From positions 1 to 36,179 of IMG/VR virus record IMGVR_UViG_3300025141_013686: 36,179 nucleotides of DNA; one strand, written 5' to 3'. Source of the DNA: a virus. The position numbers and the translations under genes were made by a program. This document shows positions 1 through 36,179 of the stretch, one piece after another; positions within the stretch are counted from its first letter, which is position 1; each line of letters opens with the position of its first letter. The notes beneath the pieces are model-generated. The model was not told the origin of the DNA. It ran no database searches and saw only the letters and a program-made list of their open reading frames with translations.

Positions 1-2
1 TG

Positions 3-428
3 GTCAAACATTTTTTGCTCATCACAGACAATATTGATATAATAGTAATGTTGCAACCAACATCGCCTTTACGCACAAGCAAAGACATAGATAATGCCAT
101 TGACGCATTTTTTGAACAAGATGTTGATTCTTTGTTTTCTGCCGTTGAATTGGAAGATTTTTTTATTTGGGAGAGAGTCAATAATGGAAGCCTCCGAAGC
201 GTTAATTATGATTTCGAAAACAGACAACGAAGACAGGATATTCATGGACAATTTGTTGAAAATGGATCAATTTATGTATTTAAACCATCTGTTGTTTTGG
301 AACACGATAATAGACTCGGTGGAAAAATTGGCGTTTCTATTATGGAGCCGTGGAAAATACACGAAATAGACTCACATGATGATTTGGAGTTGTGCAGATT
401 TGTTTATAACCAAAAGGTATTAAAGTGA
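3..428 (+). CDS. CMP-sugar synthetase (acylneuraminate cytidylyltransferase family), 5' partial
   Basis: This is the C-terminal part of a nucleotide-sugar cytidylyltransferase. The reading frame is open from base 3 with no convincing start, because TTG at 15 lies inside conserved sequence, so the gene begins outside the window. The visible motif LQPTSPLRTSKDIDNAI is the family signature around the nucleotide and sugar site, and the tail with NGSIYVFKP and then EIDSHDDLEL matches the family's C-terminal end. Known members use CTP to activate sialic-acid-like nonulosonic acids or KDO as CMP-sugars in the cytoplasm. The actual substrate cannot be read here. The TGA stop overlaps the GTG start of the next gene by four bases, which suggests coupled translation. 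A nonulosonate synthase of the NeuB type would be the expected upstream partner, but it is not visible. Confidence 0.88.
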   Translation, partial: VKHFLLITDNIDIIVMLQPTSPLRTSKDIDNAIDAFFEQDVDSLFSAVELEDFFIWERVNNGSLRSVNYDFENRQRRQDIHGQFVENGSIYVFKPSVVLEHDNRLGGKIGVSIMEPWKIHEIDSHDDLELCRFVYNQKVLK

Positions 429-1396
429 GTGATAGATTAGTATACTTTAATGGCGACTTCGTACCGGAGTCCGAAGCAAAAATTTCAATTTATGATTCCG
501 CTCTAATGTTTGGGGATATGGTATTTGAAATGACACGTTCCTTTAATAAAAAACAATTCAAGCTGCGGGAGCATTTAGAGAGATTATATATTGGGATCAA
601 ATATTTACAAATTCCAATTAACATGACAATAGATGAAATGGAAGAGGCGGTCTATAAAACAATAGAAGTTAACGATCCATTGTTTGAAGATGACGATGAA
701 CATCGCATCATGATTGATGTTACAAGAGGACTTTTGGGTCTTTATGATACAAGGGTCGAGAGTGTGGATTCTGGTGTTAATGTTATCATTGCAGATTTCC
801 CATTGAGGTGGACGGTTGCCTCAATGGGTCATTTGTTTGACAAAGGGATTAACGCAGTTATCCCATCTCAACGAGCTATTCCCGCTCGTCTACTTGAGCC
901 AAAAATCAAAAATAGAAGCAGAATACACTATCTTATGGCAAATATTGAGGTATCGCAGTTTGCTGGTAGCGATAACTGGGCTCTCCTATTAGACGAAGAC
1001 GGCTTTATCGCAGAAGGAACAGGTGATAATTTCTTTATTGTTAAAAACGGCGCAATTATTACACCTGAAGGCAGAAACATTTTAAGAGGTATAAGTCGTG
1101 AATATATTTTCGAACTCGCCCAACAACATGGCTTAGATTGTTTTGAAACGAATATAGAACCTTATGATGTCTATACTGCTGATGAAGCATTTATGACAGG
1201 AACTCCATTTTGTTTGTTACCCGTTACCAAGTTGAATGGTCGTGAGATTGGAGACGGCAAGCCAGGAAGTATAACAACATTCTTGCTGGAGAAATGGAGT
1301 AAAAATGTCGGCGTGGATATTGTCTCCCAGATTAAGTCATATGCCGACGAGGTTAAGATAGAGTCACCATCACCTTATGAGTTTAAGAGAAAATAA
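425..1396 (+). CDS. PLP-dependent class IV aminotransferase (branched-chain / D-amino acid type)
   Basis: This 323-residue protein is a fold-type IV aminotransferase, the family of branched-chain aminotransferase, D-amino acid transaminase and aminodeoxychorismate lyase. Its length is normal for the family. The N-terminus has the typical YFNGDFVPESEAKI lead and a DSALMFGD segment. Lysine 162 in EPKIKNRSR is the likely Schiff-base lysine. The AEGTGDNFF motif near residues 196-204 and the ILRGISRE motif near 219-226 are the usual phosphate- and cofactor-binding elements. The start is GTG at 425, overlapping the previous stop by four bases, and the stop overlaps the next ATG by one. The setting between a cytidylyltransferase and a sugar epimerase suggests a role in sugar or amino-acid substituent synthesis, not in general amino-acid metabolism. 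The substrate is unknown. Confidence 0.88.
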   Translation: MSDRLVYFNGDFVPESEAKISIYDSALMFGDMVFEMTRSFNKKQFKLREHLERLYIGIKYLQIPINMTIDEMEEAVYKTIEVNDPLFEDDDEHRIMIDVTRGLLGLYDTRVESVDSGVNVIIADFPLRWTVASMGHLFDKGINAVIPSQRAIPARLLEPKIKNRSRIHYLMANIEVSQFAGSDNWALLLDEDGFIAEGTGDNFFIVKNGAIITPEGRNILRGISREYIFELAQQHGLDCFETNIEPYDVYTADEAFMTGTPFCLLPVTKLNGREIGDGKPGSITTFLLEKWSKNVGVDIVSQIKSYADEVKIESPSPYEFKRK

Positions 1397-2169
1397 TGAA
1401 TCTTGGAATAATACAAGGCAGATTATCGATGCCAGTTCGCAATCATATACAAGAGTTTCCACGTAATTGGAAAAAAGAATTTGAACTTCTCGACAGATGC
1501 GGATTACACCATATTGAATGGCTGATTACGAAAGGTACTGCAAAATCTAATCCTGCATTTGACGAAGCAACCTCTCTTAAGGAGTTTCCAATTAGTTCAT
1601 ATTGCGCCGATACATTGGTGGATATAGGGGTTACCGATGATAAATATCTTAAAGAACATTTACAACCAATTTGCGAGTCAGCCATTCGCAACGAGATAGG
1701 CACCATTACCATACCTCTTTTGGAGGATAGTAGTGTAGAAGATCCAAAACTTAGACAAAAATTTAAGGAACTTATATTGGAGTATGCAATACAATATCCA
1801 AATATAAAATTCTCTTTTGAATGTGAATTACCAATTGAGGAACTTCAAGACATATTAGAGTTATCTGATAATTTTTACGTTACTTATGACACTGGAAATA
1901 TTACATCATATGGTTTAGATCATACTGATTATATTAACGCTTTTCATGAACGAATAAATAACGTACATCTAAAAGATAGAACGTATGATGCGAAAACAGT
2001 TTATCCCACTACCGGAGATACTGATTTTAAACTAATTTTTGAAACTCTATCGTCTGTAGGGTATAATGGGCTTTATACATTACAGACCGCAAGAGGCAAA
2101 GCGGGCATAGAAATCATTACTATGATACAACACAAAAACATTTTAAAAGGACTATATGATGCAGAATAA
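1396..2169 (+). CDS. Sugar phosphate isomerase/epimerase-like TIM-barrel protein
   Basis: This 257-residue protein belongs to the xylose isomerase-like TIM-barrel family (AP endonuclease 2 fold). The start MNLGIIQGRLS is the usual first strand. Probable metal ligands sit where the family has them: Glu142 in FSFECEL, Asp165 in YDTGN and His191 in NVHLKDR. The fourth position, often Glu, appears to be Gln230 in YTLQTAR. Members isomerise or epimerise sugars, inositols and related polyols using a divalent metal. The ATG overlaps the preceding TAA by one base, and the 3' end overlaps the next gene by up to 14 bases. The context suggests it acts on a precursor of an activated sugar. The exact reaction is not deducible. 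Confidence 0.82.
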   Translation: MNLGIIQGRLSMPVRNHIQEFPRNWKKEFELLDRCGLHHIEWLITKGTAKSNPAFDEATSLKEFPISSYCADTLVDIGVTDDKYLKEHLQPICESAIRNEIGTITIPLLEDSSVEDPKLRQKFKELILEYAIQYPNIKFSFECELPIEELQDILELSDNFYVTYDTGNITSYGLDHTDYINAFHERINNVHLKDRTYDAKTVYPTTGDTDFKLIFETLSSVGYNGLYTLQTARGKAGIEIITMIQHKNILKGLYDAE

Positions 2170-2980
2170 CATTTTTGATCTCACGGGAAAAATTGCCGTC
2201 ATCACAGGCGCAGGTGGCATCTTGGGACCAAAGCATGCCGAAGCAATTATTGAGCATGGCGGAACGGTTATATTAACTGATTCTCACGAAGATAGAGCGG
2301 AAGATAAGGCAAGAACATTAAACGATAAATATGGAAAGGGCTCTGCTTATGCATATTATATGGACGTGACAAAAAAGGATACAATTCTTGCTGTTGCCAA
2401 TCAGTTAAGTAAAGTAGATATTTTAATCAACAACGCTGCGAAGGATCCCAAAGTCGAGGGCTCAAAAGGAATGTCGCCAAGCTCCAGATTTGAAACAATG
2501 ACACAGGAATATTGGGAAGAGGGAATCAGCGCTACACTACATGGCACCTTTCTCTGTTCACAAGTGTTTGCCAACAAGATGCTTGAAGATGGCGGCGGCG
2601 TAATCGTTAATATAGCCTCGTGTCTCGCCAACCTTGCACCAGACCAAAGAATTTATAGGCAGGAAGGTTTAGAAGAGGATATGCAGAATGTAAAGCCGAT
2701 TACTTATGTTGCATCGAAATGGGCTGTTGTTGGAATGACTAAATACTTAGCAACGTATTTTGCAGACCGTGGAATCCGGGTTAACTGCCTTAGCCCAACT
2801 GGCGTTTGGAATGAAAGAATTCCAGAGCATATGGTCAAAAGAATTGCGAATCTCAACCCAATGAATCGTATGGCTAACATCGATGAGTATAAAGGCGCAA
2901 TTGTCTTTTTGTGTTCAGACGCAAGCTCATATATGACGGGGACAAATTTGATTGTCGATGGTGGCAAAACTTCGTGGTAA
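2156..2980 (+). CDS. Short-chain dehydrogenase/reductase (SDR family)
   Basis: This is a classical SDR of 274 residues. The cofactor-binding glycine motif TGAGGILG is at about residues 17-24, NNAA at 92-95, the catalytic Ser155 follows in NIASC, and Tyr184 with Lys188 form the YxxxK motif in ITYVASK. The C-terminus YMTGTNLIVDGG is the usual last strand. It should oxidise or reduce a hydroxyl or keto group with NAD(P). Two adjacent ATG codons (2156 and 2159) could start it, both inside the end of the epimerase gene. Similar SDRs occur beside cytidylyltransferases in bacterial surface-sugar clusters, which fits this location. The substrate is unknown. Confidence 0.9.
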   Translation: MMQNNIFDLTGKIAVITGAGGILGPKHAEAIIEHGGTVILTDSHEDRAEDKARTLNDKYGKGSAYAYYMDVTKKDTILAVANQLSKVDILINNAAKDPKVEGSKGMSPSSRFETMTQEYWEEGISATLHGTFLCSQVFANKMLEDGGGVIVNIASCLANLAPDQRIYRQEGLEEDMQNVKPITYVASKWAVVGMTKYLATYFADRGIRVNCLSPTGVWNERIPEHMVKRIANLNPMNRMANIDEYKGAIVFLCSDASSYMTGTNLIVDGGKTSW

Positions 2981-2991
2981 CTGAATTGCCA

Positions 2992-3333
2992 ATGAAGCAT
3001 GTTCCCAAAGGATGGGGATGGGAGCGCTGGATTGTCAACAATGAAGAATATTGTGGAAAGCTCTTATTCTTCTATAAAGACAAGAAATGTTCCTGGCATT
3101 ATCACGTTTTAAAAGATGAGGTCTTTTATTTACAATCTGGCAAAATGTTGATAAAGTATTCAGATGAAGATAATATTGCAAATGCCAAAGAATTGGTTTT
3201 AAATGCTGGTGATAACTTTCACGTTTATCGAGGGCTACGACATAGAATGATTGCGCTGGAGGATTCTGAATTATTTGAATTTTCAACACAACACTTTGAT
3301 AGTGATAGCCACAGGATATTAAAGGGTGACTAA
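2992..3333 (+). CDS. Small cupin-domain protein
   Basis: This is a single cupin of about 113 residues. The first cupin motif is CSWHYHVLKDEVFY, giving probable metal ligands His36, His38 and Glu43. The second motif includes GLRHRM with His84. The N-terminus KHVPKGWGWERWIVNN resembles sugar-associated cupins of the mannose-6-phosphate isomerase type. I chose the ATG at 2992, but an in-frame GTG at 2974, overlapping the SDR gene, is possible because no clear ribosome binding site precedes either. Longer frames reaching back to 2911 lie inside the SDR gene and are not credible. Cupins in such clusters may isomerise, epimerise or bind sugars. The role here is unassigned. Confidence 0.75.
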   Translation: MKHVPKGWGWERWIVNNEEYCGKLLFFYKDKKCSWHYHVLKDEVFYLQSGKMLIKYSDEDNIANAKELVLNAGDNFHVYRGLRHRMIALEDSELFEFSTQHFDSDSHRILKGD

Positions 3334-3343
3334 GGACGGAATT

Positions 3344-3694
3344 ATGAAAGTAGCTACAGTAATAGAGCGACAAATTAAAGAAAGAACAAGAGAGGTGTGT
3401 CTCAAAAATACATTACCCGAACTTCCGACACACATTGTTGCAACGGACTCAATTGGCGAAGTAATTGAAAAAATGGTGATTCTTCACATTCGAACGTGGA
3501 TGCTTGAAGACGCAATAACCGAAGCCGAAACCGATAAAGAGATTGCCGATCTGAAAAGAAAAATTGACATCTGTTTTAAACAAAAAAGACCAAAATATAT
3601 TGAGGCAATTAATGCGATGATTGATAATGCAATTATACACGGGCATACATTAAAAGAAGATTCTGTTAAACTATATGGAAGGACAAAAAAATGA
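3344..3694 (+). CDS. DUF4254-like protein
   Basis: This 116-residue protein resembles the DUF4254 family. The middle has HIRTWMLEDA (about 48-57) followed by DKEIADLKRKID (about 64-75), close to the family pattern in which a Trp and a Leu-Glu-Asp are followed by a basic helix containing Lys-Arg and Ile-Asp. Members are often encoded beside lipooligosaccharide glycosyltransferases, and no activity is established. The ATG at 3344 is chosen because AAGGA lies about eight bases upstream. A GTG at 3326 in the same frame would overlap the cupin but has poorer spacing. The stop overlaps the ATG of the next gene in an ATGA arrangement. The family assignment rests on memory of the motif. Confidence 0.6.
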   Translation: MKVATVIERQIKERTREVCLKNTLPELPTHIVATDSIGEVIEKMVILHIRTWMLEDAITEAETDKEIADLKRKIDICFKQKRPKYIEAINAMIDNAIIHGHTLKEDSVKLYGRTKK

Positions 3695-4806
3695 AAAAAA
3701 CTTTGTTTATCTTCGGTCCTTACGACGAATTTACTTTATTTATAAAATTCAATAGTCTTATTCGCAGGGAGAAACAAAAAAAAGAATATGATGAGATTAT
3801 TGCAATTGTTCCATATTGCGCCGCTGGCGTGATTTCGGAAGCCGATAAAATTCTTACCGTTAGCCACCAATTTCATAGAAATACGGAGAGTGAGTACCCG
3901 AGAGTGCTGGAACTGAAAACTCCCGCCTCAAGCCTGGAGCCAGATCCCGGAGTTCGAGAGCACATTGGATATGTACGTTCGGGTTTTCTATCGCTAGCAC
4001 TGCGATATATTAGACAGAATTTTGATAACTATGATGTAGCTATGTATACCGAAAAAAATCACTCCTATCGTAGATACTTCCTTCACGAATTCAGCAGCGA
4101 GCGGGTGGTGGGTACACTGAAAGCCCTCGATGCTTTTGATATTAAGCGCAATCCATCTTCAGAGGGCTGCGTATACCACGATCAGTTTGTTGATGTTGCG
4201 AAGAATCTAGGAGAAGGGATGGAGTTGCTGCCGTTTAAGGAAGACTACCATACAATAAAAAATTCATATGGTGATTATTTTGACGAAAAAACATATGTAA
4301 TTCACTCTCGCGGCTTTAAATACAAACAACCGGGCGTGTATAATGCAGAGCACGGGATGAACAGCTTGGGATATCGTCCGATTATTAAAAAATTAATGGA
4401 TGAGGGATATAAATTCATTAATGTCGGTTTCCCACCTGCGGATTTAGGCATACAACATGCCAACTATACTCCATGCAATCTTAGCCTCTCTTATTCGGAG
4501 CATTTATCTTTCTGTCGTCTTGCGGCTGGATGGATAATGTTTAGCGATGCTGGTGGTTGGTTGATACATATTTGTTCGGATCTAGATATCTTTTCAATTG
4601 GTCCCGAGTGGGCGCATTTTAGTACAGGAGCACACGGTTATAAACCGCTACTAGAAAATAGGCTACTACGGAAGGAACTTTACACAGCAGATCTTCGCAA
4701 TGGAACTCCTAAAGAGTTATATGGGTATATAAGAGCCCACAAACCAACGATATATAACGACAAACTACCAAGTTTAAAACAAAGGGTAATAGTAATTGAT
4801 GAATGA
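3691..4806 (+). CDS. Probable glycosyltransferase (GT-B-like), family not identified
   Basis: This 371-residue protein has no signal peptide or obvious membrane segment. It starts with a Rossmann-like strand (KKTLFIFGPYDEFTLFI), and the second half holds YVIHSRGFKY at about 202-211, a helix then YKFINVGFPP at about 240-249, and MFSDAGGW at about 283-290. This order resembles the C-terminal nucleotide-sugar domain of GT-B enzymes, where a basic strand is followed by a glycine-rich acceptor or donor loop. A good SD (AAGGA) precedes the ATG, and the start overlaps the previous stop by four bases. Placement next to GDP-fucose and CMP-sugar genes supports a transferase that uses one of those donors. 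It could instead be a different Rossmann-fold polysaccharide enzyme. Confidence 0.5.
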   Translation: MKKTLFIFGPYDEFTLFIKFNSLIRREKQKKEYDEIIAIVPYCAAGVISEADKILTVSHQFHRNTESEYPRVLELKTPASSLEPDPGVREHIGYVRSGFLSLALRYIRQNFDNYDVAMYTEKNHSYRRYFLHEFSSERVVGTLKALDAFDIKRNPSSEGCVYHDQFVDVAKNLGEGMELLPFKEDYHTIKNSYGDYFDEKTYVIHSRGFKYKQPGVYNAEHGMNSLGYRPIIKKLMDEGYKFINVGFPPADLGIQHANYTPCNLSLSYSEHLSFCRLAAGWIMFSDAGGWLIHICSDLDIFSIGPEWAHFSTGAHGYKPLLENRLLRKELYTADLRNGTPKELYGYIRAHKPTIYNDKLPSLKQRVIVIDE

Positions 4807-5707
4807 AAAACATGAAAGAGTTCTTGTAACAGGTGGAACCGGCTTTGTTGGAAAAAATTTACAAGAGCAAAAACCCAATTGGATTTATGTCTCTTCTAAG
4901 CACTATGATTTAACTATTCCAAATGAGTGTCGTCAAATGTATAGAGACACCCAGCCAGATGCAGTTATCCACTTAGCTGCGAGAGTAGGCAGTATAAAAG
5001 ACAATACCGAAAATCAAGCAGAATATTATTTTCAAAATACAATGATTAACACCAATGTTGTTCACGAAGCATATAAAGGAGGCATCAAGAGGCTTTTAGC
5101 CTCATTAAGCACATGTGCCTTCCCAGATAAGCTTGAATCTTATCCCTTTACTGAACAGGATCTATTAAGAGGACCACCAGCACCAACTAATTTTTCATAT
5201 GGGCATACTAAAAGATCGCTCCATGTTCAATGTCATTCTTATAGAAAGCAATATGGGCTAAACTACTCTACGTTTTGCCCGTCAAATATTTACGGACCAG
5301 CAGATCATTTTGATAGTGAAGCTTCACATTTTGTCCCATCTTTAGTAAGCAAGTTGTACAATTTAAAAAATAATACTTTAACACTATGGGGAACCGGTAC
5401 CCCATTAAGACAACAATTATATGTTGATGATTTGGCGACAATTATACCAATTCTTTTGGAACACCACAATACAGAACTACCGCTAATTGTTGCACCTGAC
5501 GAAAATTTGAGTATAAACCAAATGGCTAATATTGCAATTAAAAAACTGAATAAAAATGTTATAATAGAATACAATGGAGAGTTAGATGGACAACATCGAA
5601 AAGATGGCGACAATTCTAAGTTAAAACAAATAATTGGTGATTTTGAATTTACCTCGTTTGAACAGGGAATAGAAAAAACATACCAATGGTATAAGGAACA
5701 CAGATGA
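4799..5707 (+). CDS. fcl: GDP-L-fucose synthase
   Basis: This 302-residue NAD(P)-dependent epimerase/reductase has the full set of GDP-L-fucose synthase landmarks. TGGTGFVG is at about 11-18, Ser104 and Cys106 are in LSTCAFPD, Tyr134 and Lys138 are in YGHTK, His177 is in SHFVPSL, and an Arg is at about 204 in [12 protein letters not shown]. These align with the catalytic Ser, Cys, Tyr, Lys and His of the Escherichia coli enzyme, so I expect activity. It converts GDP-4-keto-6-deoxymannose to GDP-L-fucose in the cytoplasm by 3,5-epimerisation and reduction. The ATG at 4799 is preferred to an upstream TTG at 4796. It overlaps the glycosyltransferase gene by eight bases and gmd by four. The partner enzyme that makes its substrate is the next gene. 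Confidence 0.92.
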
Positions 5708-6690
5708 AAAAGACAGCGCTAATAACCGGTGTTACAGGACAAGATGGCTCTTATTTGGCAGAACTTTTGTTAAATAAGGGATATCGTGTGATCGGTATGA
5801 AAAGAAGAACTTCCTTGATTAATACTAATAGAATCGACCACATATTTGAAGATAATGATAAAATCATGAATTTCGATCTTGTCTATGGAAACTTAAATGA
5901 TTCCGGTGCACTGCACAGATTGTTGATTAAATATAAACCAGATGAGATTTATAATTTAGGAGCACAATCTCATGTGCGAGTTTCGTTTGACACACCGGAA
6001 GAGACTACAGAATATGTAGCGATGGGTACGCTTAGACTTTTAGAGGCAACCAGAAACATATGCCCCAAATCAAGATTTTATCAAGCATCATCGTCAGAAA
6101 TGTTTGGCGACAATCCTGACATTCCCCACAATGAAGAGACACATCTCGCACCCGCCTCACCATACGCTTGTTCAAAAGTGTATGCTCACCATTTAATAAG
6201 AAATTATCGTGAAAGTTATAACCTTCACGCATCCAGCGGGATACTCTTTAATCACGAGTCTCCACGAAGAGGAGAAACGTTTGTCACCCGCAAAATCACA
6301 AGAGCCGCAGCAAGAATCAAGCTAGGTCTTCAGGATGATCTATATTTGGGAAACTTAGATGCAAAAAGAGACTGGGGCTTTGCTGGTGATTACGTAGAAG
6401 CCATGTGGCTAATGTTACAACAAGACGAGCCAGATGATTATGTGATTGCAACTGGAGAGTCTTATAGCGTTCAGCAGTTTTTAGAATTTGTCTTTGATTA
6501 CGCTGAATTAGACATTGACAAATATTTAAAAATAGACGAAAGACTATTTAGACCACATGAAGTACCTTATTTATTGGGCAACCCATCTAAAGCAAAACGT
6601 AAGCTAAACTGGAGTCCCAAAGTTAATTTTGAAGAACTGGCTATTATGATGTATGAGTCAGACCTAAAAAGCATAAAAAAGGAGAATTAA
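5704..6690 (+). CDS. gmd: GDP-mannose 4,6-dehydratase
   Basis: This 328-residue enzyme catalyses the first step of GDP-fucose synthesis, turning GDP-mannose into GDP-4-keto-6-deoxymannose. The cofactor motif [10 protein letters not shown] is at about 9-18, and [12 protein letters not shown] near 84-95 is characteristic. The active site shows ASSSEMFG with Glu132, plus Tyr154 and Lys158 in YACSK. The Thr found in the E. coli motif ASTSE is Ser here, a conservative change. [17 protein letters not shown] near 183-199 is a hallmark of GMD over other SDR sugar enzymes. Length is slightly shorter than the bacterial norm. The ATG overlaps the fcl stop as ATGA. It completes a two-enzyme GDP-fucose route and ends the glycan cassette, one base before the next start. 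Confidence 0.95.
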
Positions 6691-6691
6691 T

Positions 6692-6937
6692 ATGCAACTT
6701 TCAAATCAAGCACTGGGAGCGCTTATGCTCGCACTACAAAATTCTTTAATGAATCAGACGGATATTGTTCCGGTATTAAAAGAACTTACATTTACTGATA
6801 CTAATGATGGGCTCGTTGTTGACAACCCGCCAATTGTTGACATGTCCAACGAGCCCGAAGAAGACGCAGACGGCAGCGCAATATTTCAAGCATATGTAGA
6901 AGAAATGGAAAACACAGACAAACCCACCACATCTTAA
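6692..6937 (+). CDS. Small acidic phage protein, function unknown
   Basis: This 81-residue protein has a helical N-terminus (NQALGALMLALQNSLMNQ) followed by an acidic tail rich in Asp and Glu (NEPEEDADG). It starts one base after the gmd stop with a strong AAGGAG about eight bases upstream, so it should be well translated. The N-terminal pattern reminds me of short conserved proteins in marine T4-like phages, but no function is known to me. It has no signal peptide or membrane segment. Its position marks the change from sugar genes to phage genes. Confidence 0.65.
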   Translation: MQLSNQALGALMLALQNSLMNQTDIVPVLKELTFTDTNDGLVVDNPPIVDMSNEPEEDADGSAIFQAYVEEMENTDKPTTS

Positions 6938-6938
6938 G

Positions 6939-7214
6939 ATGCCGAAATATGTATATAGGTGTTTAGAATGTGAACAAGTTTATGAAATCGTTCATTCGTT
7001 TGGAGAAGTAATTGAAACTTGCTTGCAGCTAAACGAATATAGCGAATGCGCCACTACATCTAAGGTACAGAGAATGCCACAATATGTTAATCTTGTTAAA
7101 AAAGAAAACAAAGAGACACAGGTGGGACAAGTCGTTAATGACTTTATTAAAACGACAAAAGAAGAAATAAACACATACAAAAAAGAGTTACAAGAATGGA
7201 CATACAAAAAATAG
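6939..7214 (+). CDS. FmdB-like zinc-ribbon protein with degenerate second knuckle
   Basis: This 91-residue protein begins MPKYVYRCLECEQVYEI, the usual start of FmdB-type putative regulatory zinc ribbons. Cys8 and Cys11 form a normal first knuckle. The second pair is spread out as Cys28 and Cys37 in place of the usual CxxC, so metal binding may be altered. After the ribbon comes a Lys/Glu-rich helical tail of about 40 residues. It starts one base after the preceding stop with no clear SD, suggesting translational coupling, and its 3' end overlaps the next gene by 19 bases. The role is unknown, and such ribbons are common in phages near late-regulation genes. Confidence 0.65.
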   Translation: MPKYVYRCLECEQVYEIVHSFGEVIETCLQLNEYSECATTSKVQRMPQYVNLVKKENKETQVGQVVNDFIKTTKEEINTYKKELQEWTYKK

Positions 7215-7531
7215 ACCTATTCTATATAATTTTTGGCTTATCGCTGACATTCAATATTGTTTTTGTTTGGTATATACGAGCAATATTAAAAAAGTTGTTT
7301 TTCATATCAGACAATATTGATACAATATCAGAAGTAAACATTAATTTTGCCCAACATATTGAGGTGCTTTATGAACAAGAAAGATATTTTGGAGAACCTG
7401 CCATTGAAGAGTTATTGGCACACTCAAAGCACGTTGCCGAACAAATGAAAGTTTTTGATGATATATTGGCTGACCTAGACTTTATAGAAGAGAAAGCAGC
7501 GGATCGCGAACAAGAGTCCTCTGCACCATGA
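7196..7531 (+). CDS. Single-pass membrane protein of unknown function
   Basis: This 111-residue protein has one predicted membrane helix at about residues 8-28 (FYIIFGLSLTFNIVFVWYIR), followed by basic residues, then a helical soluble tail ending in acidic and polar residues. The positive residues after the helix suggest the C-terminal part is cytoplasmic. Similar short membrane proteins with a helix, then SDNIDTISE-like and YFGEPAIEELL-like segments, seem to recur in marine T4-like phages, as I recall them. No function is known to me. It overlaps the zinc-ribbon gene by 19 bases and the sigma-factor gene by four (ATGA). Confidence 0.65.
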   Translation: MDIQKIDLFYIIFGLSLTFNIVFVWYIRAILKKLFFISDNIDTISEVNINFAQHIEVLYEQERYFGEPAIEELLAHSKHVAEQMKVFDDILADLDFIEEKAADREQESSAP

Positions 7532-8226
7532 GCAATACTGGACGTAGAAAGAAATCAGGTAAGCACTACTTTACCAAAGACCATGAGAATGCCATAATAC
7601 AATATGTTGCTTCAGATGATCAGGTTGAAAGAACCAAGTTATATATTGAATACATCGGTCCAGCATTTAATGAAATGGTGGATAAAATTGTATATACCTA
7701 TAAATTTACAACTCTTCCAAATGTTGATTCGCTAAAGGATGAGTGCAAAGTTTGGTTAACTACTATTCTTGATAAATATGATCCAAACAAGGGATCTAAA
7801 GCATTCTCGTATTTTAGTGTAATTACTAAAAATTGGTTTATTCACAAAGTTAAAAAAAATGCCAAGAGAGCGAGAACTGAAGTGTTATATGATGAGTTAC
7901 CAAAACACTTAGAAACCGCACACGTAACAACAACTAATAAATCTGACGAACTTCGCGAAGAACGCGAGTTTTGGATTGCTTTATGGTCTGAAATAGATCA
8001 CTGGGACACTGGAAATCTTAAGGAAAATGAAAAAAAGGTTTTAGAGGCAGTAAAAATACTATTAAATTCTGTTAATGAGGATGAAATGATTTATAATAAA
8101 AAGGCAATTTACCTTTATTTACGAGAACTTACAGGGCTTAACACAAAGCAAGTTGTTAATAATCTTAATAAATTGCGTATAAAATATAAGATATTTAAGA
8201 AAAACTGGATTAATGGAAAGATATAA
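7528..8226 (+). CDS. Late-transcription sigma factor, T4 gp55-like
   Basis: This 232-residue protein resembles the T4 gp55 group, which replaces host sigma-70 on RNA polymerase to recognise late promoters. The key stretch is about residues 70-115: DECKVWLTTILDKYDPNKG, then SKAFSYFSVITKNWFIHKVKK, corresponding to the sigma region 2 core with an aromatic helix followed by a basic one. T4 gp55 is somewhat shorter (under 200 residues), and the extra length here is C-terminal (EKKVLEAVKILL onward), possibly a region-4-like helical segment. It overlaps the preceding gene as ATGA. The stop codon lies inside a hairpin that continues into the next gene's start. It presumably drives the virion genes downstream. 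No protein similar to the co-activator gp33 is recognisable next to it. Confidence 0.72.
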   Translation: MSNTGRRKKSGKHYFTKDHENAIIQYVASDDQVERTKLYIEYIGPAFNEMVDKIVYTYKFTTLPNVDSLKDECKVWLTTILDKYDPNKGSKAFSYFSVITKNWFIHKVKKNAKRARTEVLYDELPKHLETAHVTTTNKSDELREEREFWIALWSEIDHWDTGNLKENEKKVLEAVKILLNSVNEDEMIYNKKAIYLYLRELTGLNTKQVVNNLNKLRIKYKIFKKNWINGKI

Positions 8227-8266
8227 TATTCGCGGATCCTAATTAATAAGGAGCCTGAATATTATG
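8222..8266 (+). promoter_or_regulatory. Hairpin enclosing the ribosome binding site and start codon of the next gene
   Basis: The spacer between the sigma-factor gene and the next gene can fold almost completely. Bases 8223-8231 (ATAATATTC) are perfectly complementary to 8257-8265, and G-U pairs extend each end to 8222/8266 and 8232/8256. After bulged C8233, GG 8234-8235 pairs with CC 8254-8255, an A-G mismatch follows, then TCCT 8237-8240 pairs with AGGA 8249-8252. The loop is eight bases. The SD AAGGAG and the AUG at 8264 are therefore both inside the stem. This is the layout of a translation-control hairpin. No T run follows, so it is not a standard terminator. Confidence 0.5.
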
Positions 8267-8551
8267 AAAAAAGTAGACAATTATCTAGAAGAAGCAATCG
8301 GTAACATACGCAAAGACCGCGAAATAACCAAAGAATTGCTCAATGATTTGATTGTATATCTGAGCGCAGACGAGTCTAGGCACAAGGATGTTGGCCAAAT
8401 AGCCGCCAAATATGTCGAAACCCTCCAACGCTCAAACGAACAGCTTGTAAAGGTTGTAACCTTGTTGCAAAAAAAACAAGGAGGCACCACTAGTTTATCT
8501 GATGTAGACAAGACGGAAATATTTGACTTACTTAATGGAGAAAACAAATAA
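8264..8551 (+). CDS. Small helical phage protein of unknown function
   Basis: This 95-residue protein is predicted to be mostly alpha-helical. It has a charged N-terminal half (NIRKDREITKELLNDLIVYL) and a central segment AAKYVETLQRSNEQLVKVV that looks like an amphipathic or coiled helix. I recall similar proteins in marine myoviruses but no function. AAGGAG is ten bases upstream of the ATG, and both are inside the hairpin described at 8222-8266, so expression may be controlled. The TAA overlaps the ATG of the following peptidase gene by one base, so translation of the two is probably coupled. Confidence 0.7.
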   Translation: MKKVDNYLEEAIGNIRKDREITKELLNDLIVYLSADESRHKDVGQIAAKYVETLQRSNEQLVKVVTLLQKKQGGTTSLSDVDKTEIFDLLNGENK

Positions 8552-10122
8552 TGGCTAATGACTTTGTTCAATATATATTAAATAGTGTAAGCCTCCCAAC
8601 TCAAAATGGCAATCTTCGCCCATCCGATATCCCCCCCTACGTCGCCCAGAACAATGCGAGATTTGCAAACTTTGATCATGATGCGTTTGCCTCAAATAAT
8701 GTAGGATACAAAGCATTCATTTTGAAGTATGCATCTTCGGGCACTGGAGAAAGCGATTCCTCTCGCGGACAAGCGACACTTTATAACCCTTCACACTGGC
8801 TTACGGTAACAAACCAATATTTCGATCTTATGGAGGGCATTGACGCTACGGCAGAAGAAGGGCAAAGCACAGCAAATCAAGCTGTTGCACAAATGCTTAA
8901 TATTAATTCTCCGCAGATGCATGTGTGGATTCCCTCCTTGGATATTGATTTAGAGGTACCCCAGATACAGCCGTCGCCAACAGTAACAACCGGATATGCC
9001 GCTGTTAATGCAAACTTATTTAGAATGTGTACTATTGACAGAGAAGAATATAAGACAAGCCTGCCTCCTGTGGGCTCTTTAATTCTTGTTGATTTTGAAG
9101 ACAGGGCGGGTCAAGGGGGACTTGCTATGACCGGACTTATAACTCAAGATCGTCAATTTTGCAGAGCAGTATTAAGTGCGCTAAGCTCTGATAATAACAA
9201 TGGATCGCCAATACGAGACTCAGCAGCGGCACGACGAGCCCAAACAGCAGAACTTGCCAACAATGGGATTAGCGTTCCTACGGGAGATCAAATAGGCACT
9301 CTCGAAGTTCCCGACCCAATCCCCGTATCCGCTGAAATTGCTCAGCTTGCAGCAAATTATGACAATAATGTGCCCGACAGAGTGCCCCTCAAAGATCACC
9401 CCAGCGGAAAGCATCGCGAACTGTTCGAAAAAGCACATCCTGATTTTGTGCCATATATGAAAGCATTTGCTCGCAACGCTTGGGACAATCGTAAAGCCAC
9501 TATTTATTTTACCAGCAGCTACCGCTCCCATAGCGAACAACTCTATCTCCACAGGAACTGGATGATATGGCATGCGTTCCAAGCACTTCCAGCCTCTGAA
9601 AGGCAAGCAATGGCTTCGTCTGGGTACTACCACTTCGAATGGGGAATTGGATATGGTGGCGTCAAGGCATATGATACACAAGCAAAGTGGACCACTGCCT
9701 CCCCTTATGACAGTTCAAGCCCACCGACAGAGCAGCAATATATAGCTACCGATCCCGACAAAACAAGTTATCACTCTCTGGGACTGGCATTTGATTTTTC
9801 TCCAACCTGGGGAGACGTTAACCCCGATGGCGTGGTCCCAAGCACCCCGGTGAAGGGGTATCATATGCTGGCTGGCATGGATGGACCAGGAAATAGCTAT
9901 AGTGCCGCCCCATCAGAATGGGAAGCCACCGGCATCGTCGATGACGGAACCAGCATAGGTCTTCAATGGGGAGGGAATTGGACCGGAAAGCATGTGGATC
10001 CGATTCATTTTGATTTTGGTTTTGTTCTCGGAGCCAATCAGAAACAAGCGGTTGTGGACGCAGCCAAACAACAGGGCGTCGAACCCAATCGAGTGGATCT
10101 TAGCGCTTTTGTTTTTGTATAA
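8551..10122 (+). CDS. Baseplate hub-like protein fused to an M15 L-Ala-D-Glu-type endopeptidase
   Basis: This 523-residue protein has two parts. The N-terminal half contains PPVGSLILVDFEDRAGQGG near 172-190, which looks like the OB-fold strand found in gp5-like hub or spike proteins. The C-terminal part (about 285-500) is a peptidase M15 domain: SSYRS at 322-326, SYHSLGLAFDF with zinc ligands His408 and Asp415, and DPIHFDF with catalytic Asp483 and zinc ligand His486, preceded by LQWGGNW. An Asp three residues before the last His, together with the WGG motif, fits phage L-alanyl-D-glutamate endopeptidases better than D-Ala-D-Ala enzymes. It would cut peptide crosslinks in the wall during entry. 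The peptidase half looks richer in G and C than the flanking genes. The hub role is inferred. Confidence 0.8.
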   Translation: MANDFVQYILNSVSLPTQNGNLRPSDIPPYVAQNNARFANFDHDAFASNNVGYKAFILKYASSGTGESDSSRGQATLYNPSHWLTVTNQYFDLMEGIDATAEEGQSTANQAVAQMLNINSPQMHVWIPSLDIDLEVPQIQPSPTVTTGYAAVNANLFRMCTIDREEYKTSLPPVGSLILVDFEDRAGQGGLAMTGLITQDRQFCRAVLSALSSDNNNGSPIRDSAAARRAQTAELANNGISVPTGDQIGTLEVPDPIPVSAEIAQLAANYDNNVPDRVPLKDHPSGKHRELFEKAHPDFVPYMKAFARNAWDNRKATIYFTSSYRSHSEQLYLHRNWMIWHAFQALPASERQAMASSGYYHFEWGIGYGGVKAYDTQAKWTTASPYDSSSPPTEQQYIATDPDKTSYHSLGLAFDFSPTWGDVNPDGVVPSTPVKGYHMLAGMDGPGNSYSAAPSEWEATGIVDDGTSIGLQWGGNWTGKHVDPIHFDFGFVLGANQKQAVVDAAKQQGVEPNRVDLSAFVFV

Positions 10123-10135
10123 TATGGTATAATTT

Positions 10136-10936
10136 ATGTCACAAGTTCCCCGCATACTTAATGTTAAATTAAAAAAGACAAATTTCTACACAATACAAGA
10201 TCCTGGACCGTTCACTGGTGTTGCTTCCCCGGCAAACTTAAATGATTACGAAATAATTAGAGGCACTTACGGTCTATATTATAGAGGTGGCAAGATAGGT
10301 ACTGTTTATGAGCTTGTAAACATTGGGAACAACGTGTTGGTTACTAAAGATATTGCCGGATATCTTGTAGCAATGTTACAAGAAGCGCAAGATAGCGGCA
10401 TTAACTTGCGAGTTACCAGTGGGTTCCGAACAATGAAGCACCAATTGGAACTTTTTCAAGGAAATCAAGATTCGTCTACAGTCTTTGTTGCAAAACCTGG
10501 ATTTAATCACCATCAAATCGGCATCGCAGTAGATTTTAACGTGAACGACATGGAAGGACGGGTATATGAATGGCTTGTTAAAAACGCTTACCGTTTTGGA
10601 TTCATTCGAACAGTCCCCAACGAGCGATGGCATTGGGAATATTGGGGAAGTTGGGCTGAACAACAGCAACCAGAATGGTCGAAACACAAAAGGTTAAACC
10701 ATAAACAGTTATCGATGTTTTCAAAAGTTCCAAGAATTCATAGCTGCGGCGACGGGGGATCAGGAGGAAAGTTTCCAGTTAGCGAATCGCATTGGTGGAC
10801 CACCCTTGGCGCTTCTGGAGAACACACAGATGCTAGCACCGAGGGCATGACAAACTCATGGATTGGATTTTCTAATGAATTTCTGCCTACCAAATTTGAT
10901 CGCGAAGATCCTCATTGGGGCACTAAGAAGTTTTAA
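10136..10936 (+). CDS. Second M15-family peptidase (VanY-like)
   Basis: This 266-residue protein carries a compact M15 domain at about 75-170. SGFRT is at 95-99, NHHQIGIAVDF gives zinc ligands His126 and Asp133, and ERWHWEYW gives catalytic Glu163 and zinc ligand His166. The Glu-x-x-His arrangement is that of D,D-carboxypeptidases of the VanY type, unlike the Asp version in the preceding gene. The N-terminal 70 residues and the C-terminal 95 residues (KHKRLNHKQLS onward, with a Gly-rich GDGGSGGK loop) match nothing I know and may anchor it to the virion. There is no signal peptide or holin-like neighbour. It starts 13 bases after the hub gene without a visible SD. It could be a second virion-associated lysin or the late endolysin. 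Confidence 0.82.
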   Translation: MSQVPRILNVKLKKTNFYTIQDPGPFTGVASPANLNDYEIIRGTYGLYYRGGKIGTVYELVNIGNNVLVTKDIAGYLVAMLQEAQDSGINLRVTSGFRTMKHQLELFQGNQDSSTVFVAKPGFNHHQIGIAVDFNVNDMEGRVYEWLVKNAYRFGFIRTVPNERWHWEYWGSWAEQQQPEWSKHKRLNHKQLSMFSKVPRIHSCGDGGSGGKFPVSESHWWTTLGASGEHTDASTEGMTNSWIGFSNEFLPTKFDREDPHWGTKKF

Positions 10937-10956
10937 AGATCTAACTAATTATAGTT

Positions 10957-11964
10957 ATGCCAAGACGCAATAGAGATGCGGTTTGTTTAGACGGCTTTGT
11001 TAATACGGCTCCGCTAGATATCGCCAATACCGATCCCTCTTATCCCGGATATGGAGCAGGGGTATTTGGTGATGACATTGTTGAGCCTCTTCCTCGGCGG
11101 ATACCCGCGCCCTCTGAGGATATACTTCAAAAGGGAAACTCATGGATTGTATTAGGAAGAGACAGAACAGGCTCAAGAGCAAGTGGCCACGGAGGTGCTG
11201 CCGAGACTGGATGTAGTGCAATAGACATATGCGTAGGAATGGGCGGTCCATGTCCTACTAATGGTGAGAACGTTGATCCCAATTTTAAAGCAGATGGCGC
11301 ACGAATCTATGTAAGCCAAAAAACAAATATTGACGAAGCCTTTAAAATAGGGTGGAGGGACATTGGACCACAACTGGTACCGGGATACATCGCAGGCGGC
11401 GCTGCCATGATGTTCGATTCTTTTGATGAATCAGGTATTGGTATTAAAGCCGATGCTGTGCGTATAATTGGCACCAATGGAATAAAATTAGTAACAAGAA
11501 CCCAAAATAGGGACAGCACCGGCCTTCAAGCCGATTATAACGGCATCGAATTAATTGCCAATGGGGATATTAGCAAGTTACAATATATGGTTAAAGGCAA
11601 TAATTTGGTTGCCTGTTTAAACGTTCTCGAAGAGAGAATTAATGCGGTGATGGGAATACTTCTTGAGGTCATTAGAGCACAAAATACATATAACAAAGCC
11701 ATCCTAAACCATACACACGTACTCAATCCCGCCGTATCCGGCATGGCTGGTTCCATTCCCGTCATTGCAAGTCTCGCTTACCCCAAGACGAGCAAGTCCT
11801 CCACGCTAGTCCCATCAGGCTGCAAAACAATCACCGACTTTGCTACTGAGTCTTTGGATGTTTTTAAAACCAGAATTAATTTAAATATTAATTGGAATGC
11901 AAAATATTTGACCGGGGCAGATCCACGGAATTATATTTTAAGCCAATACAACAAGGTCAACTAA
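10957..11964 (+). CDS. Virion structural protein, possibly baseplate spike
   Basis: This 335-residue protein has no known catalytic motif. It has a Gly-rich segment (SGHGGAAETGCSAIDICVGMGG, about 76-97), then DGARIYVSQKTNIDEAF, SGIGIKADAVRIIGTNGIKLVTR and GIELIANGD, which look like short beta strands repeated in register, as in spike or needle proteins. A later VKGNNLVACLN segment is followed by a helix and a His pair in NHTHV near 252-256. I recall this arrangement from structural proteins of marine myoviruses that lie beside the hub. It starts 20 bases after the peptidase gene without a clear SD. The spike role is inferred from strand-like repeats and position. Confidence 0.6.
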   Translation: MPRRNRDAVCLDGFVNTAPLDIANTDPSYPGYGAGVFGDDIVEPLPRRIPAPSEDILQKGNSWIVLGRDRTGSRASGHGGAAETGCSAIDICVGMGGPCPTNGENVDPNFKADGARIYVSQKTNIDEAFKIGWRDIGPQLVPGYIAGGAAMMFDSFDESGIGIKADAVRIIGTNGIKLVTRTQNRDSTGLQADYNGIELIANGDISKLQYMVKGNNLVACLNVLEERINAVMGILLEVIRAQNTYNKAILNHTHVLNPAVSGMAGSIPVIASLAYPKTSKSSTLVPSGCKTITDFATESLDVFKTRINLNINWNAKYLTGADPRNYILSQYNKVN

Positions 11965-18328: not shown

Positions 18329-18363
18329 ATCTACAAAACTATTTAATCACAGGAGCAAACTAA

Positions 18364-33220: not shown

Positions 33221-36179
33221 ATGGCACATGCATGTCCGATAATTCCAAAAGTCTATATTGATAAAGTATTTTTAGGCAATGCTTCCTTATCTACGAGTGG
33301 TGATGGAGAAGTAACCGTTAACACGGGCGACATTATTGTAAACTTAAAGTTTACACAATTAATCGAGGCAGACTTGGTGAACAATCTCATGGAATTCCCA
33401 AATTCAGATATTAATATACAAGATTATGTTAAAATTGTATGTATGTTATCAACTTCACAAGAGGTAACAGATGTCATAAAAGAAGGTCTTGATCCTCAAA
33501 ATCGATATGAGGGTGGCTGGCCAGCCCCCTGGACGTTCAATCAATATAACATGCGCGGACCAACCACTTGGGATGGTAGTGCTTATTGGACCCCGTTTGC
33601 TTTAGGTGATCCGCTGCTGAAGCCAGGGGCGCATGGGTTGCGAGCAGGACAGTTTGACAGTGACCCCATCGGTAGCCAATATTACGCAGAAATCCATTCC
33701 GTCGATGAGTTTACATGCACCCCAGACATCACCTATCAAGATGAGCCGTTTGTTGCCAATGGAGTATATAGGTTTGGGTCTTTCCGCAACAATGCGAACT
33801 TCGAGTCGCTTACCCACTTAACTTGTTTCGCTTATGTAGTAATAGACACTGATCAATTAGAGACAGATTATAGTATATCATTACCTTCTCAATATAAATA
33901 TTTTACAACAGGCTATTATGTGCAAGAACGCATTATAGAAGGGGGCGACGTTGCACCCAAGTTTTTTGTTAAAATGGATTCGGGAGATACCACCTCGGAT
34001 GCCGATCCGCAAGACAAAGCAGATCATTCCCATACATATCAGATTGACGCCAATGGCAATGGTATTACAGATACCGTGACGATATCGGCGGACCCCCGCT
34101 ATGATCACTTTCATGAAATAAAAAATTATGCAGTCTTCTTGTCCCACAACCATGTGCACGAGATCAACGAGGACGCCCTTTCTGTCACAAATACTATTGA
34201 TTATAGAATACAAGCCGAATTGGATGCGCTACACACATCCCTTGCGGGCATGGGAACGCGATTGCTCGCAGAAGAAGAAGCAGTTTATTTTTCTGATATG
34301 TGGCTAACAAAAGACGCCTCCAGAAATGCTAGATATGCTTTTACATTTGATTATGGAAAGTTTATTCTCAACGAATCCGATGATAGAGATTTTATTTCAA
34401 ATATGAGCATTACCGCAAAACAACAAATAATTTCTAATTCTATAATCACAAAATTTATATTGAGCAGACATCAAGTTGGACCCGGTGGAATCGATGTACC
34501 CGTGGTTGAAGATCTAGACGATCCCGCTCTAACTGAAATTGGTTTAGAACTAATGAGCCAAAGCTATCCCAGTGGTAATGGCCAGAGTTACTCACTATTA
34601 AGACATTTCACCGGAATCGACGCACCAGCAGGTTTGACCTTCGGTGAACCCCGCGTAGGAATGGCAGATTTAACTTCTGGAGAGTATCAGTATATACTAG
34701 ACATAGAGGTTGTTGATGGATTTGCCTCTATGATTGCCCTCATCCTGAAGCCTCTTGTTGAAGCCTTCGCCAATTATCAAGAATATTATAATACGGCAAT
34801 GCTTCCGTTACCTTCTGAACTATGTGAACATTTTACTCTCAAAGGCGTGAAAAACCTAGATAAGCCCCTCAGCCAGATTGCAACAGATACAATCATTGCC
34901 TACCTTGATGCACTCGGAGCACTCTTCGACGGCTTCGACTCCCAATCTTCTCACTATGCGTATTATCAAAGCAAATTACAAACAATGGTGTATCCAAAAA
35001 CAGGTACTCAAGAAGGCGTGGCACTTCTTAACCAAATGATGCTAGATTTGGTGGGAATTTATGATAACCTGCTACGGAAAAATTCATCAGGTACAAGCGT
35101 AGAAGTAACAGCAGCCGATATACAATCAAACAATCTCGCCCTCCACGACAACGCACCCGTGATTACAATGCGTTATGAGTTTAATAACTATATAGACGCA
35201 CTATTTGAAAATGATATGTATGTAGATAATGTGAGCCTTAGCCTATCCGATGTGATACCAGGATTAAAGGTTTATACCATACCACAGTTGCTCAGCGCAA
35301 CATCAACGGGAGTCTCTGACGCCAACCCTACCGTTGAAGATCAAACTTCATCCGATGGGTATAGTGCCACCACTGACTCAACTGATACCACATCTACATC
35401 AGATGACGCATTGACCCGCGAAGAAGCCGATGCCGCAGCCGATGAACACTGGAACGCAGCTTCTGCGGCAACTCTAGCAACTGATGAGAGCGGTGCGGCA
35501 ATCTCCCTCAGTTCCGCAGCGGCAAACGCATTAAGCTCCTACACGGGTCAGCAGGCTACGACATGGACTGTTGATAAAGGAGGCACCACTTCAAGCATCT
35601 TTTCAATGGGGAATTATTTTGGAGGCGCGGTAGCCAAAGTGAACCCGATCTTTAAAGCCGCTGTAACAACAAACGGCGATTCTACTGCCGTTGATTTGTT
35701 TACATCAGATCCACAGCCCGCATCTACTCTTATGAATGAGGTTGAGGTTTTAATGAAGTATAATATCGCCACACCGCAGCCGCCGACAACTCTTGGCGGC
35801 ATACAGCTTAAAAGCGACGACTGGGCAGTAAAGAGGTTTGAGGAGCTTAACGTAGCAAGCTGCACTGGACCTGTCACCACACGCTGTTATTATCTTTGTC
35901 GTCAATCTGAACCTTCAGGATGGAAATGGGGAGAGATTATTAATAGATATTTCTTATTGGTGGCACCGCAGATCCCCTGGGCTCCCGCCACACCCAAAAA
36001 AGAGAAAAATTGGGGAGTTGTGGACGAGATAGACAAAGATTCTACATCCTGGAATCAAAAGGGTGCCATTGAACAACTTAACCAACAAAGAGAGGAAGAA
36101 TCTGAAAATTCGCAAAGCAACGGCAAGGGCATCGGCAAGGGCATCGGCAAGGGCATCGGCAAGGGCATCGACAAGAGCA
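33221..36179 (+). CDS. Large tail or baseplate protein with His-x-His clusters, 3' partial
   Basis: The frame from ATG 33221 is open to the last base (986 complete codons), so the gene continues to the right. GGGAG lies 12 bases upstream. Residues about 1-60 are strand-rich. Three His-x-His clusters lie at 269-271 (HSH), 296-298 (HFH) and 309-313 (HNHVH), around an Asp-Gly-like DANGNGITD, a layout I recall from marine phage tip domains. His-x-His clusters bind iron in T4 long tail fibres. Residues about 702-760 are Ser/Thr/Asp/Ala-rich. The visible end is EEESENSQSNGK followed by GIGKGIGKGIGKGI, coded by a 12-base repeat. No stop is seen, so the true length and C-terminus are unknown. The role is inferred as tail tip or fibre. 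Confidence 0.68.
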   Translation, partial: MAHACPIIPKVYIDKVFLGNASLSTSGDGEVTVNTGDIIVNLKFTQLIEADLVNNLMEFPNSDINIQDYVKIVCMLSTSQEVTDVIKEGLDPQNRYEGGWPAPWTFNQYNMRGPTTWDGSAYWTPFALGDPLLKPGAHGLRAGQFDSDPIGSQYYAEIHSVDEFTCTPDITYQDEPFVANGVYRFGSFRNNANFESLTHLTCFAYVVIDTDQLETDYSISLPSQYKYFTTGYYVQERIIEGGDVAPKFFVKMDSGDTTSDADPQDKADHSHTYQIDANGNGITDTVTISADPRYDHFHEIKNYAVFLSHNHVHEINEDALSVTNTIDYRIQAELDALHTSLAGMGTRLLAEEEAVYFSDMWLTKDASRNARYAFTFDYGKFILNESDDRDFISNMSITAKQQIISNSIITKFILSRHQVGPGGIDVPVVEDLDDPALTEIGLELMSQSYPSGNGQSYSLLRHFTGIDAPAGLTFGEPRVGMADLTSGEYQYILDIEVVDGFASMIALILKPLVEAFANYQEYYNTAMLPLPSELCEHFTLKGVKNLDKPLSQIATDTIIAYLDALGALFDGFDSQSSHYAYYQSKLQTMVYPKTGTQEGVALLNQMMLDLVGIYDNLLRKNSSGTSVEVTAADIQSNNLALHDNAPVITMRYEFNNYIDALFENDMYVDNVSLSLSDVIPGLKVYTIPQLLSATSTGVSDANPTVEDQTSSDGYSATTDSTDTTSTSDDALTREEADAAADEHWNAASAATLATDESGAAISLSSAAANALSSYTGQQATTWTVDKGGTTSSIFSMGNYFGGAVAKVNPIFKAAVTTNGDSTAVDLFTSDPQPASTLMNEVEVLMKYNIATPQPPTTLGGIQLKSDDWAVKRFEELNVASCTGPVTTRCYYLCRQSEPSGWKWGEIINRYFLLVAPQIPWAPATPKKEKNWGVVDEIDKDSTSWNQKGAIEQLNQQREEESENSQSNGKGIGKGIGKGIGKGIDKS
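36122..36173 (+). repeat. 12-base tandem repeat at the right edge
   Basis: The unit GGCAAGGGCATC occurs four times exactly (36122-36133, 36134-36145, 36146-36157, 36158-36169), and a partial degenerate copy (GACAAGAGC) follows. It is in frame and encodes Gly-Lys-Gly-Ile repeats (residues 968-983), ending in Asp-Lys-Ser. Exact copies suggest recent expansion, and slippage can change copy number. The window ends inside or just after it. Confidence 0.92.

Follow-up and report, generated by a model that had tools for sequence, protein, structure and literature searches.

The window analysed here, which is the whole 36,179-nucleotide stretch of IMG/VR virus record IMGVR_UViG_3300025141_013686, begins with nine open reading frames (ORFs) for sugar metabolism, all on the + strand between positions 3 and 6690, and families could be confirmed for seven or eight of them, the profile matches together being well beyond what chance would give. 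Profile matches further along the window include a late sigma gene, a gp6-like wedge protein and a gp25-like gene (PF04965), and the two wedge proteins mark this 36-kb record, at the level of sequence, as a fragment of a marine T4-like myovirus whose relatives reach about 185-205 kb. Among named phages, Microcystis phage Mel-JY01 and Flavobacterium phage immuto come closest, at 27-33% identity. A cyanophage identity was rejected on account of this low identity to the closest cultured phages and of psbA, which was found in 0/18 records, several of them fragments. Relatives of the late sigma gene number at least 590 in IMG/VR; the 80 best of these sigma-bearing loci were read, with ORFs called by a simple script. 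Individual loci and contigs are referred to below by labels such as L007 or L110.

The sugar genes open with a neuA-like cytidine monophosphate (CMP)-sugar synthetase (3..428), of which the contig start has left the C-terminal 141 aa. Truncated as it is, this ORF resembles NeuA/PseF weakly (PseF E=5e-9, below the cut-off), but along its whole length it is 87% identical to a complete 227-aa protein of L110 (L110:9321-10004), which comes after a NeuB homologue. It is followed by a class IV pyridoxal phosphate-dependent aminotransferase of the BCAT/DAAT fold (425..1396; PF01063, Aminotran_4, 3.6e-44; best PDB match 5mqz, 5e-61), whose L110 homologue is 92% identical, by a TIM-barrel sugar isomerase/epimerase (1396..2169; PF01261, AP_endonuc_2, 1.9e-8) and by a short-chain dehydrogenase/reductase (SDR; 2156..2980; PF13561, 1.4e-41), the PDB search being uninformative for the last two (only MJ1311, at 0.0085, for the TIM-barrel protein). 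With the window NeuA cut and NeuB beyond the contig end, the adjacency of the two genes was read in relatives: NeuB lies beside the 87-92% identical module in L110, and close to the matching module in L113, L114, L115 and L121. Next come a cupin of the sugar-isomerase type that is common in marine phages (2992..3333; Cupin_2, 1.1e-6; PHROG 7851, 6e-57) and a DUF4254-like protein (3344..3694), a call to be read with its PF14063 match of 1e-4, under the curated cut-off; a relative of the latter is found in L121 directly upstream of the neuA and class IV aminotransferase genes.

The ORF at 3691..4806 (371 aa) had been labelled a probable glycosyltransferase, a role guessed from its position that could not be sustained: it is an orphan with no match in Pfam, NCBIfam, PHROGs, PDB, phage records, viral contigs, GTDB genomes or 297 Pelagibacterales genomes, and its AlphaFold 2 model, made without an alignment, was uninformative (predicted local distance difference test score, pLDDT, 31). 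The series ends with an fcl-like epimerase (4799..5707; PF01370, Epimerase, 1.1e-46; NF047922, 191.7 bits against a cut-off of 500) and gmd, guanosine diphosphate (GDP)-mannose 4,6-dehydratase (5704..6690; GDP_Man_Dehyd, 5.9e-133; TIGR01472, 473.5 bits, above the cut-off of 415). As gmd passes its NCBIfam cut-off and the fcl-like gene does not, the GDP-fucose pair, described earlier as complete, is better called probable than proven. The start/stop overlaps of 1-14 bases attributed to the series hold for six junctions (4, 1, 14 or 11, 4, 8 and 4 nt), whereas a gap of around 10 nt is the likelier reading between SDR and cupin and between cupin and DUF4254-like gene, with likely starts at 2992 for the cupin gene and 3344 for the DUF4254-like one.

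One nucleotide after gmd the cassette enters a conserved module consisting of o81 (6692..6937, +), o91 (6939..7214, +; a small protein with a zinc-ribbon-like N-terminus), o111 (7196..7531, +; a small protein with one hydrophobic segment), the gp55-like late sigma factor (7528..8226, +; PHROG 234, 4e-7; IMG/VR relatives 61-87% identical) and the baseplate genes. A homologue of o81 stands directly 3' of the last sugar gene in most of the 80 loci and forms the conserved right border of a sugar island. A window that starts inside a cassette might raise the suspicion that assembly fused a bacterial sugar locus to phage DNA at about 6690, the circumstance named in the initial annotation as fatal to its proposal, but independent contigs repeat the junction, with gmd or another sugar gene abutting o81; in 59 loci the last island gene lies no more than about 200 nt from o81, and GC content is continuous. 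The chimera was therefore rejected, its chance being negligible, and the junction is taken as natural.

Upstream of o81 the 80 loci carry differing runs of sugar genes, with 707/714 ORFs on the + strand and falling into 260 clusters. The families that recur are gmd, fcl-like epimerases, NeuB, NeuA, DegT aminotransferases and UDP-glucose dehydrogenase, together with PfkB/HldE-like kinases, cytidylyltransferases, glycosyltransferases (GTs) of families GT1, GT2, GT4 and GT11, methyltransferases and B12-radical SAM enzymes. The 16 loci that were extended leftward share a left core of PhoH, a 220-260-aa protein, a PD-(D/E)XK nuclease and two glycosyltransferases, GT4-A and GT4-B, and 15 islands could be fully delimited from GT4-B to o81, spanning 6.7-25.2 kb (median 15.6 kb) with 265/267 ORFs on the + strand. 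A fixed locus with variable content, as expected of a hypervariable sugar island in a T4-like genome, is thus what these loci present. By comparison with them, window 3-6690 is the 3' end of such a larger island, the upstream half of which lies off the contig; its left core, including the GT4 pair, was read in relatives and is presumed for the window. The nine ORFs first singled out are real, but as a unit they were drawn too narrowly, being the tail of a 7-25 kb island.

L007 and L010 have sigma genes 97.8% identical and 1/7 island genes in common, and L036 and L059, at 97.7%, have 2/12; L005 and L071 are only 64% identical in sigma, yet have 12/13 island genes in common. The neuA-aminotransferase-TIM block of the window is 87/92/83% identical to that of L110 (77% DNA identity over window 1-3333), with sigma only 60% identical, and L112 holds 7/9 of the window sugar genes in the same order. 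On these sequence comparisons, island content is exchanged between phage lineages as whole cassettes, in a serotype-like manner.

The gene trees proposed in the initial annotation point to a history in phages. The gmd tree (28 phage and 45 best bacterial sequences) has a single phage side (97/97) with the window in a 20-phage clade (99/98), and the phage side of the TIM and SDR trees, which includes the window genes, has a support of 100/99 in each; on the bacterial side the trees sample only the top-scoring sequences from Pelagibacterales and Pseudomonadota and a single Patescibacteria genome. With these three genes in phage clades, the grouping of every gene with one bacterial locus was not seen, and the earlier picture of a phage-borne glycan cassette of pathway scale is borne out by the natural junction and the clades together. 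Pelagibacterales carry a distant counterpart of the CMP-sugar half, NeuB-NeuA-aminotransferase-VOC-TIM-SDR, which follows the same pathway order as the window but at 25-45% identity, and in part with a VOC protein and with a class III aminotransferase instead of the class IV enzyme of the window. The single close hit labelled bacterial, a 9,245 bp contig (L100, the same as L188) of a Candidatus Pelagibacter metagenome-assembled genome (MAG), reads NeuB-NeuA-class III aminotransferase-VOC-TIM-SDR-cupin-fcl-DegT; because TIM and SDR of this contig group with the phage sequences, it is probably a misbinned phage contig, and with a 9-kb contig in a 1.6-Mb MAG it was rejected as proof of a SAR11 host.

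The GT4 pair of the left core is present in every record extending far enough left (14-15/16), and lies outside the window itself. The order PD-(D/E)XK - GT4-A - GT4-B - further sugar genes recurs in the cultured phages immuto and Mel-JY01, and more weakly in Rhodothermus phage RM378; in immuto the pair is followed by a GT2 and an aminotransferase gene. Immuto and Mel-JY01 differ in having a small island away from the late sigma gene, and in their sigma and gp6-like proteins, which are only about 27-30% identical. In the PDB, the best match of each GT4 profile is chlorovirus NY-2A B736L (6.9e-15 and 8.6e-7), and GT4-A on its own finds B736L only (2.2e-9). The GT4-A model (pLDDT 83) also places B736L first by E-value, with a slightly higher TM-score for sucrose-phosphate synthase 6kih. 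B736L binds GDP-mannose (PMC9614988, PMC4691112), which is the substrate of gmd. Matches of GT4-A and GT4-B to Pfam GT4-conflict were weak (8e-6 and 7.5e-5, below the cut-off).

Enzymes for exporting a glycan were sought throughout. Neither the 267 ORFs of the delimited islands nor 577 larger island ORFs included a flippase, a polymerase, an initiating transferase or a polytopic transferase; at least three predicted transmembrane segments occurred in 0/577 island ORFs of at least 150 aa, against 3/116 when the same simple rule on hydropathy was applied to SAR11 windows. PF02397 and PF01943 were absent from 16 whole records in a search that detected its controls. Classical serotype-converting phages (gtr, oac) carry membrane proteins; in the islands searched, the hallmarks of their cassettes (membrane flippase, bactoprenol transferase, polytopic transferase) were not found.

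Several further genes were noticed in the islands. L110:1588-4309 encodes a thiamine-diphosphate enzyme of the acetolactate-synthase type and, after it, ketopantoate hydroxymethyltransferase (PanB), an unusual combination which may make a branched sugar or acyl group, and heptose-type sugar modules in 13 loci (L033:5911-6207 and 12 others) include an Mpo1-like 2-hydroxy fatty acid dioxygenase, perhaps for lipid modification. B12-binding radical SAM enzymes are met repeatedly, at L066:1990-3633 and in 10 further loci, and a 56% identical one is found in a Zambryskibacteria sugar locus (L101). In the left core, a conserved 257-aa protein (L099:4773-5543) has a weak likeness to a metalloprotease domain (ATLF, E=4e-4, below the cut-off).

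The sugar genes had been thought to run directly into phage late genes, a description that has to be amended: o81, o91, o111 and the late sigma gene come first, and candidate late promoters begin only after sigma. The T4 late motif TATAAATA was absent from the late gaps and a de novo motif, CTAWTTA, was used instead; its density over whole sequences does not exceed that of shuffled ones, owing to sites in coding regions, so that only positions in gaps and before starts were considered. In the window it stands 12-25 nt before late genes; across the loci it precedes 26/80 starts of o95, compared with 4/644 island ORFs (8/644 when shuffled), and shows no excess over chance before o81, o91, o111 or sigma. 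The window has candidates on the + strand at 8239..8245 (CTAATTA), 25 nt before the conserved gene o95 (8264..8551, +), the first with such a candidate, at 10945..10951 (CTAATTA), 12 nt before the ORF at 10957, and at 18339..18345 (CTATTTA), 25 nt before the gp25-like gene. Since the loci counted are related to one another, this distribution suggests only tentatively that the cassette belongs to a pre-late unit with sigma. In the same region, just ahead of the baseplate genes, consecutive genes (8551-10122 and 10136-10936) have M15/VanY-type peptidase domains, and at the contig edge the last ORF ends in a 12-bp in-frame repeat encoding GKGIGKGIGKGI (36117-36179).

The reading we favour, with a probability of roughly 0.45, is that the island encodes a phage glycan pathway operating in the cytosol, in which the core is conserved, the outer sugars are exchangeable and virion proteins are the most likely acceptors. 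Island enzymes would make the activated sugars in the cytosol: from host GDP-mannose, gmd and the fcl-like epimerase would produce either GDP-L-fucose or another 6-deoxy sugar related to it, and a CMP-activated amino-ulosonic acid would be the joint product of NeuA, the class IV aminotransferase, the TIM and SDR proteins and a NeuB encoded beyond the contig end. The conserved GT4 pair would start a core glycan which the variable genes extend and decorate on one or more virion proteins, and transcription before or with late sigma would have enzymes and sugars ready once late proteins appear. Exchange of cassettes would then change the sugar coat of the particle in the manner of a serotype. A cytosolic core-plus-variable pathway is favoured because polytopic and export enzymes are absent, the GT4 pair is recurrent and B736L is matched; the virion protein is the likeliest acceptor by analogy to chloroviruses (PMC7019647), and a GT4 pair conserved in phages of unrelated hosts is easier to reconcile with an acceptor encoded by the phage than with a host polysaccharide.

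A close rival, itself quite possible at somewhat short of even odds, is remodelling of the host surface, in which the enzymes feed sugars or side branches into host lipid-linked lipopolysaccharide (LPS) or capsule assembly and so block superinfecting phages. It is the published view for pelagimyophage and cyanophage islands, where authors favour a change of the host O-chain (PMC7029224, PMC7824862), and much of what it draws on weighs against a virion acceptor. LPS and capsule typically contain the island sugars too (NeuB/NeuA, heptose kinase, uronic acid dehydrogenase, fucose), SAR11 genomes carry a distant NeuB-NeuA-aminotransferase-TIM-SDR operon, and expression that appears to be pre-late rather than late also suits host remodelling, as does the serotype-like swapping. 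Further points against a virion acceptor are that no sequence evidence here singles out an acceptor protein, that the literature yielded nothing usable on virion glycan chemistry of these phages, that the GT4 pair was read outside the window and that 6kih scores slightly above B736L by TM-score. B736L alone is weak evidence on the acceptor, GT-B folds being broadly alike; its own acceptor is unknown, and its N-glycans contain no mannose (PMC9614988). Against host remodelling stand the missing membrane enzymes, for which the host would have to supply every membrane step, and a GT4 pair common to phages of Flavobacterium and Microcystis.

Modified phage DNA bases, also named at the outset as a target, are a very improbable acceptor. 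T4-like phages are the classic case of DNA glycosylation, and the GT4-conflict matches and adjoining nuclease gene lend it some colour, but PF00303 (thymidylate synthase/dCMP hydroxymethylase) was found in 0/11 large records, on which ground DNA glucosylation of the T4 type, the only route this search addresses, was rejected. CMP-ulosonate and GDP-fucose are moreover not known as DNA donors, and such a variety of sugars is unneeded for escape from restriction. There is a similarly slim chance that the genes are passengers, transferred host DNA serving as functionless headful-packaging filler, as was once considered for cyanophages (PMC3037559). Highly variable content would agree with filler, but the open frames are packed on one strand, the phage clades have a long shared history and modules are intact across lineages.

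Sugar clusters of marine phages have long been described (PMC3037559, 2010), including cyanophage LPS clusters (PMC3037559), pelagimyophage host recognition clusters (PMC7029224) and jumbo-phage capsular clusters (PMC7824862). The pelagimyophage cluster likewise belongs to T4-like marine phages, is hypervariable and combines glycosyltransferases with sugar genes of the LPS type close to structural genes, but it sits between VrlC and gp14 with tail fibres (PMC7029224), whereas the island here has PhoH, PD-(D/E)XK and the GT4 pair on its left and o81, late sigma and baseplate genes on its right. The LPS clusters of cyanophages P-SSM2, S-SM2 and S-SSM7 (PMC3037559) have modules in common with these islands (the cupin, which in the window has 69% DNA identity to the P-SSM2 cluster, HldE-like kinase plus cytidylyltransferase, and epimerases), but are sporadic and differently placed, and psbA was found in none of the 18 records here. 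Chloroviruses have gmd/fcl genes of their own and add glycans to their capsid in the cytosol, the outer sugars varying around a conserved core (PMC7019647, PMC9614988); the island resembles them at gene level in its GDP-sugar enzymes (fcl below its cut-off), soluble GTs and core plus variable set, but chloroviruses have a eukaryotic host and a proven virion glycan, where that of these phages is deduced from genes. What is new here is the locus with its borders, the conserved GT4 pair in both cultured and uncultured phages, the quantified exchange of cassettes, the lack of export enzymes and a variant CMP-sugar operon with a class IV aminotransferase.

A fixed locus, a GT4 pair in cultured phages and absent export machinery make the question whether such clusters act on host or virion directly testable in a culturable phage. 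It may be, though we put this forward tentatively, that a widespread marine phage clade possesses a capsule-like serotype locus for its own particles, with a GT4-built core and cassettes swapped at one site to give differing coats. If so, phage particles would have exchangeable sugar serotypes that matter for adsorption, decay and competition in the ocean, and the system would be a prokaryotic counterpart of chlorovirus capsid glycosylation.

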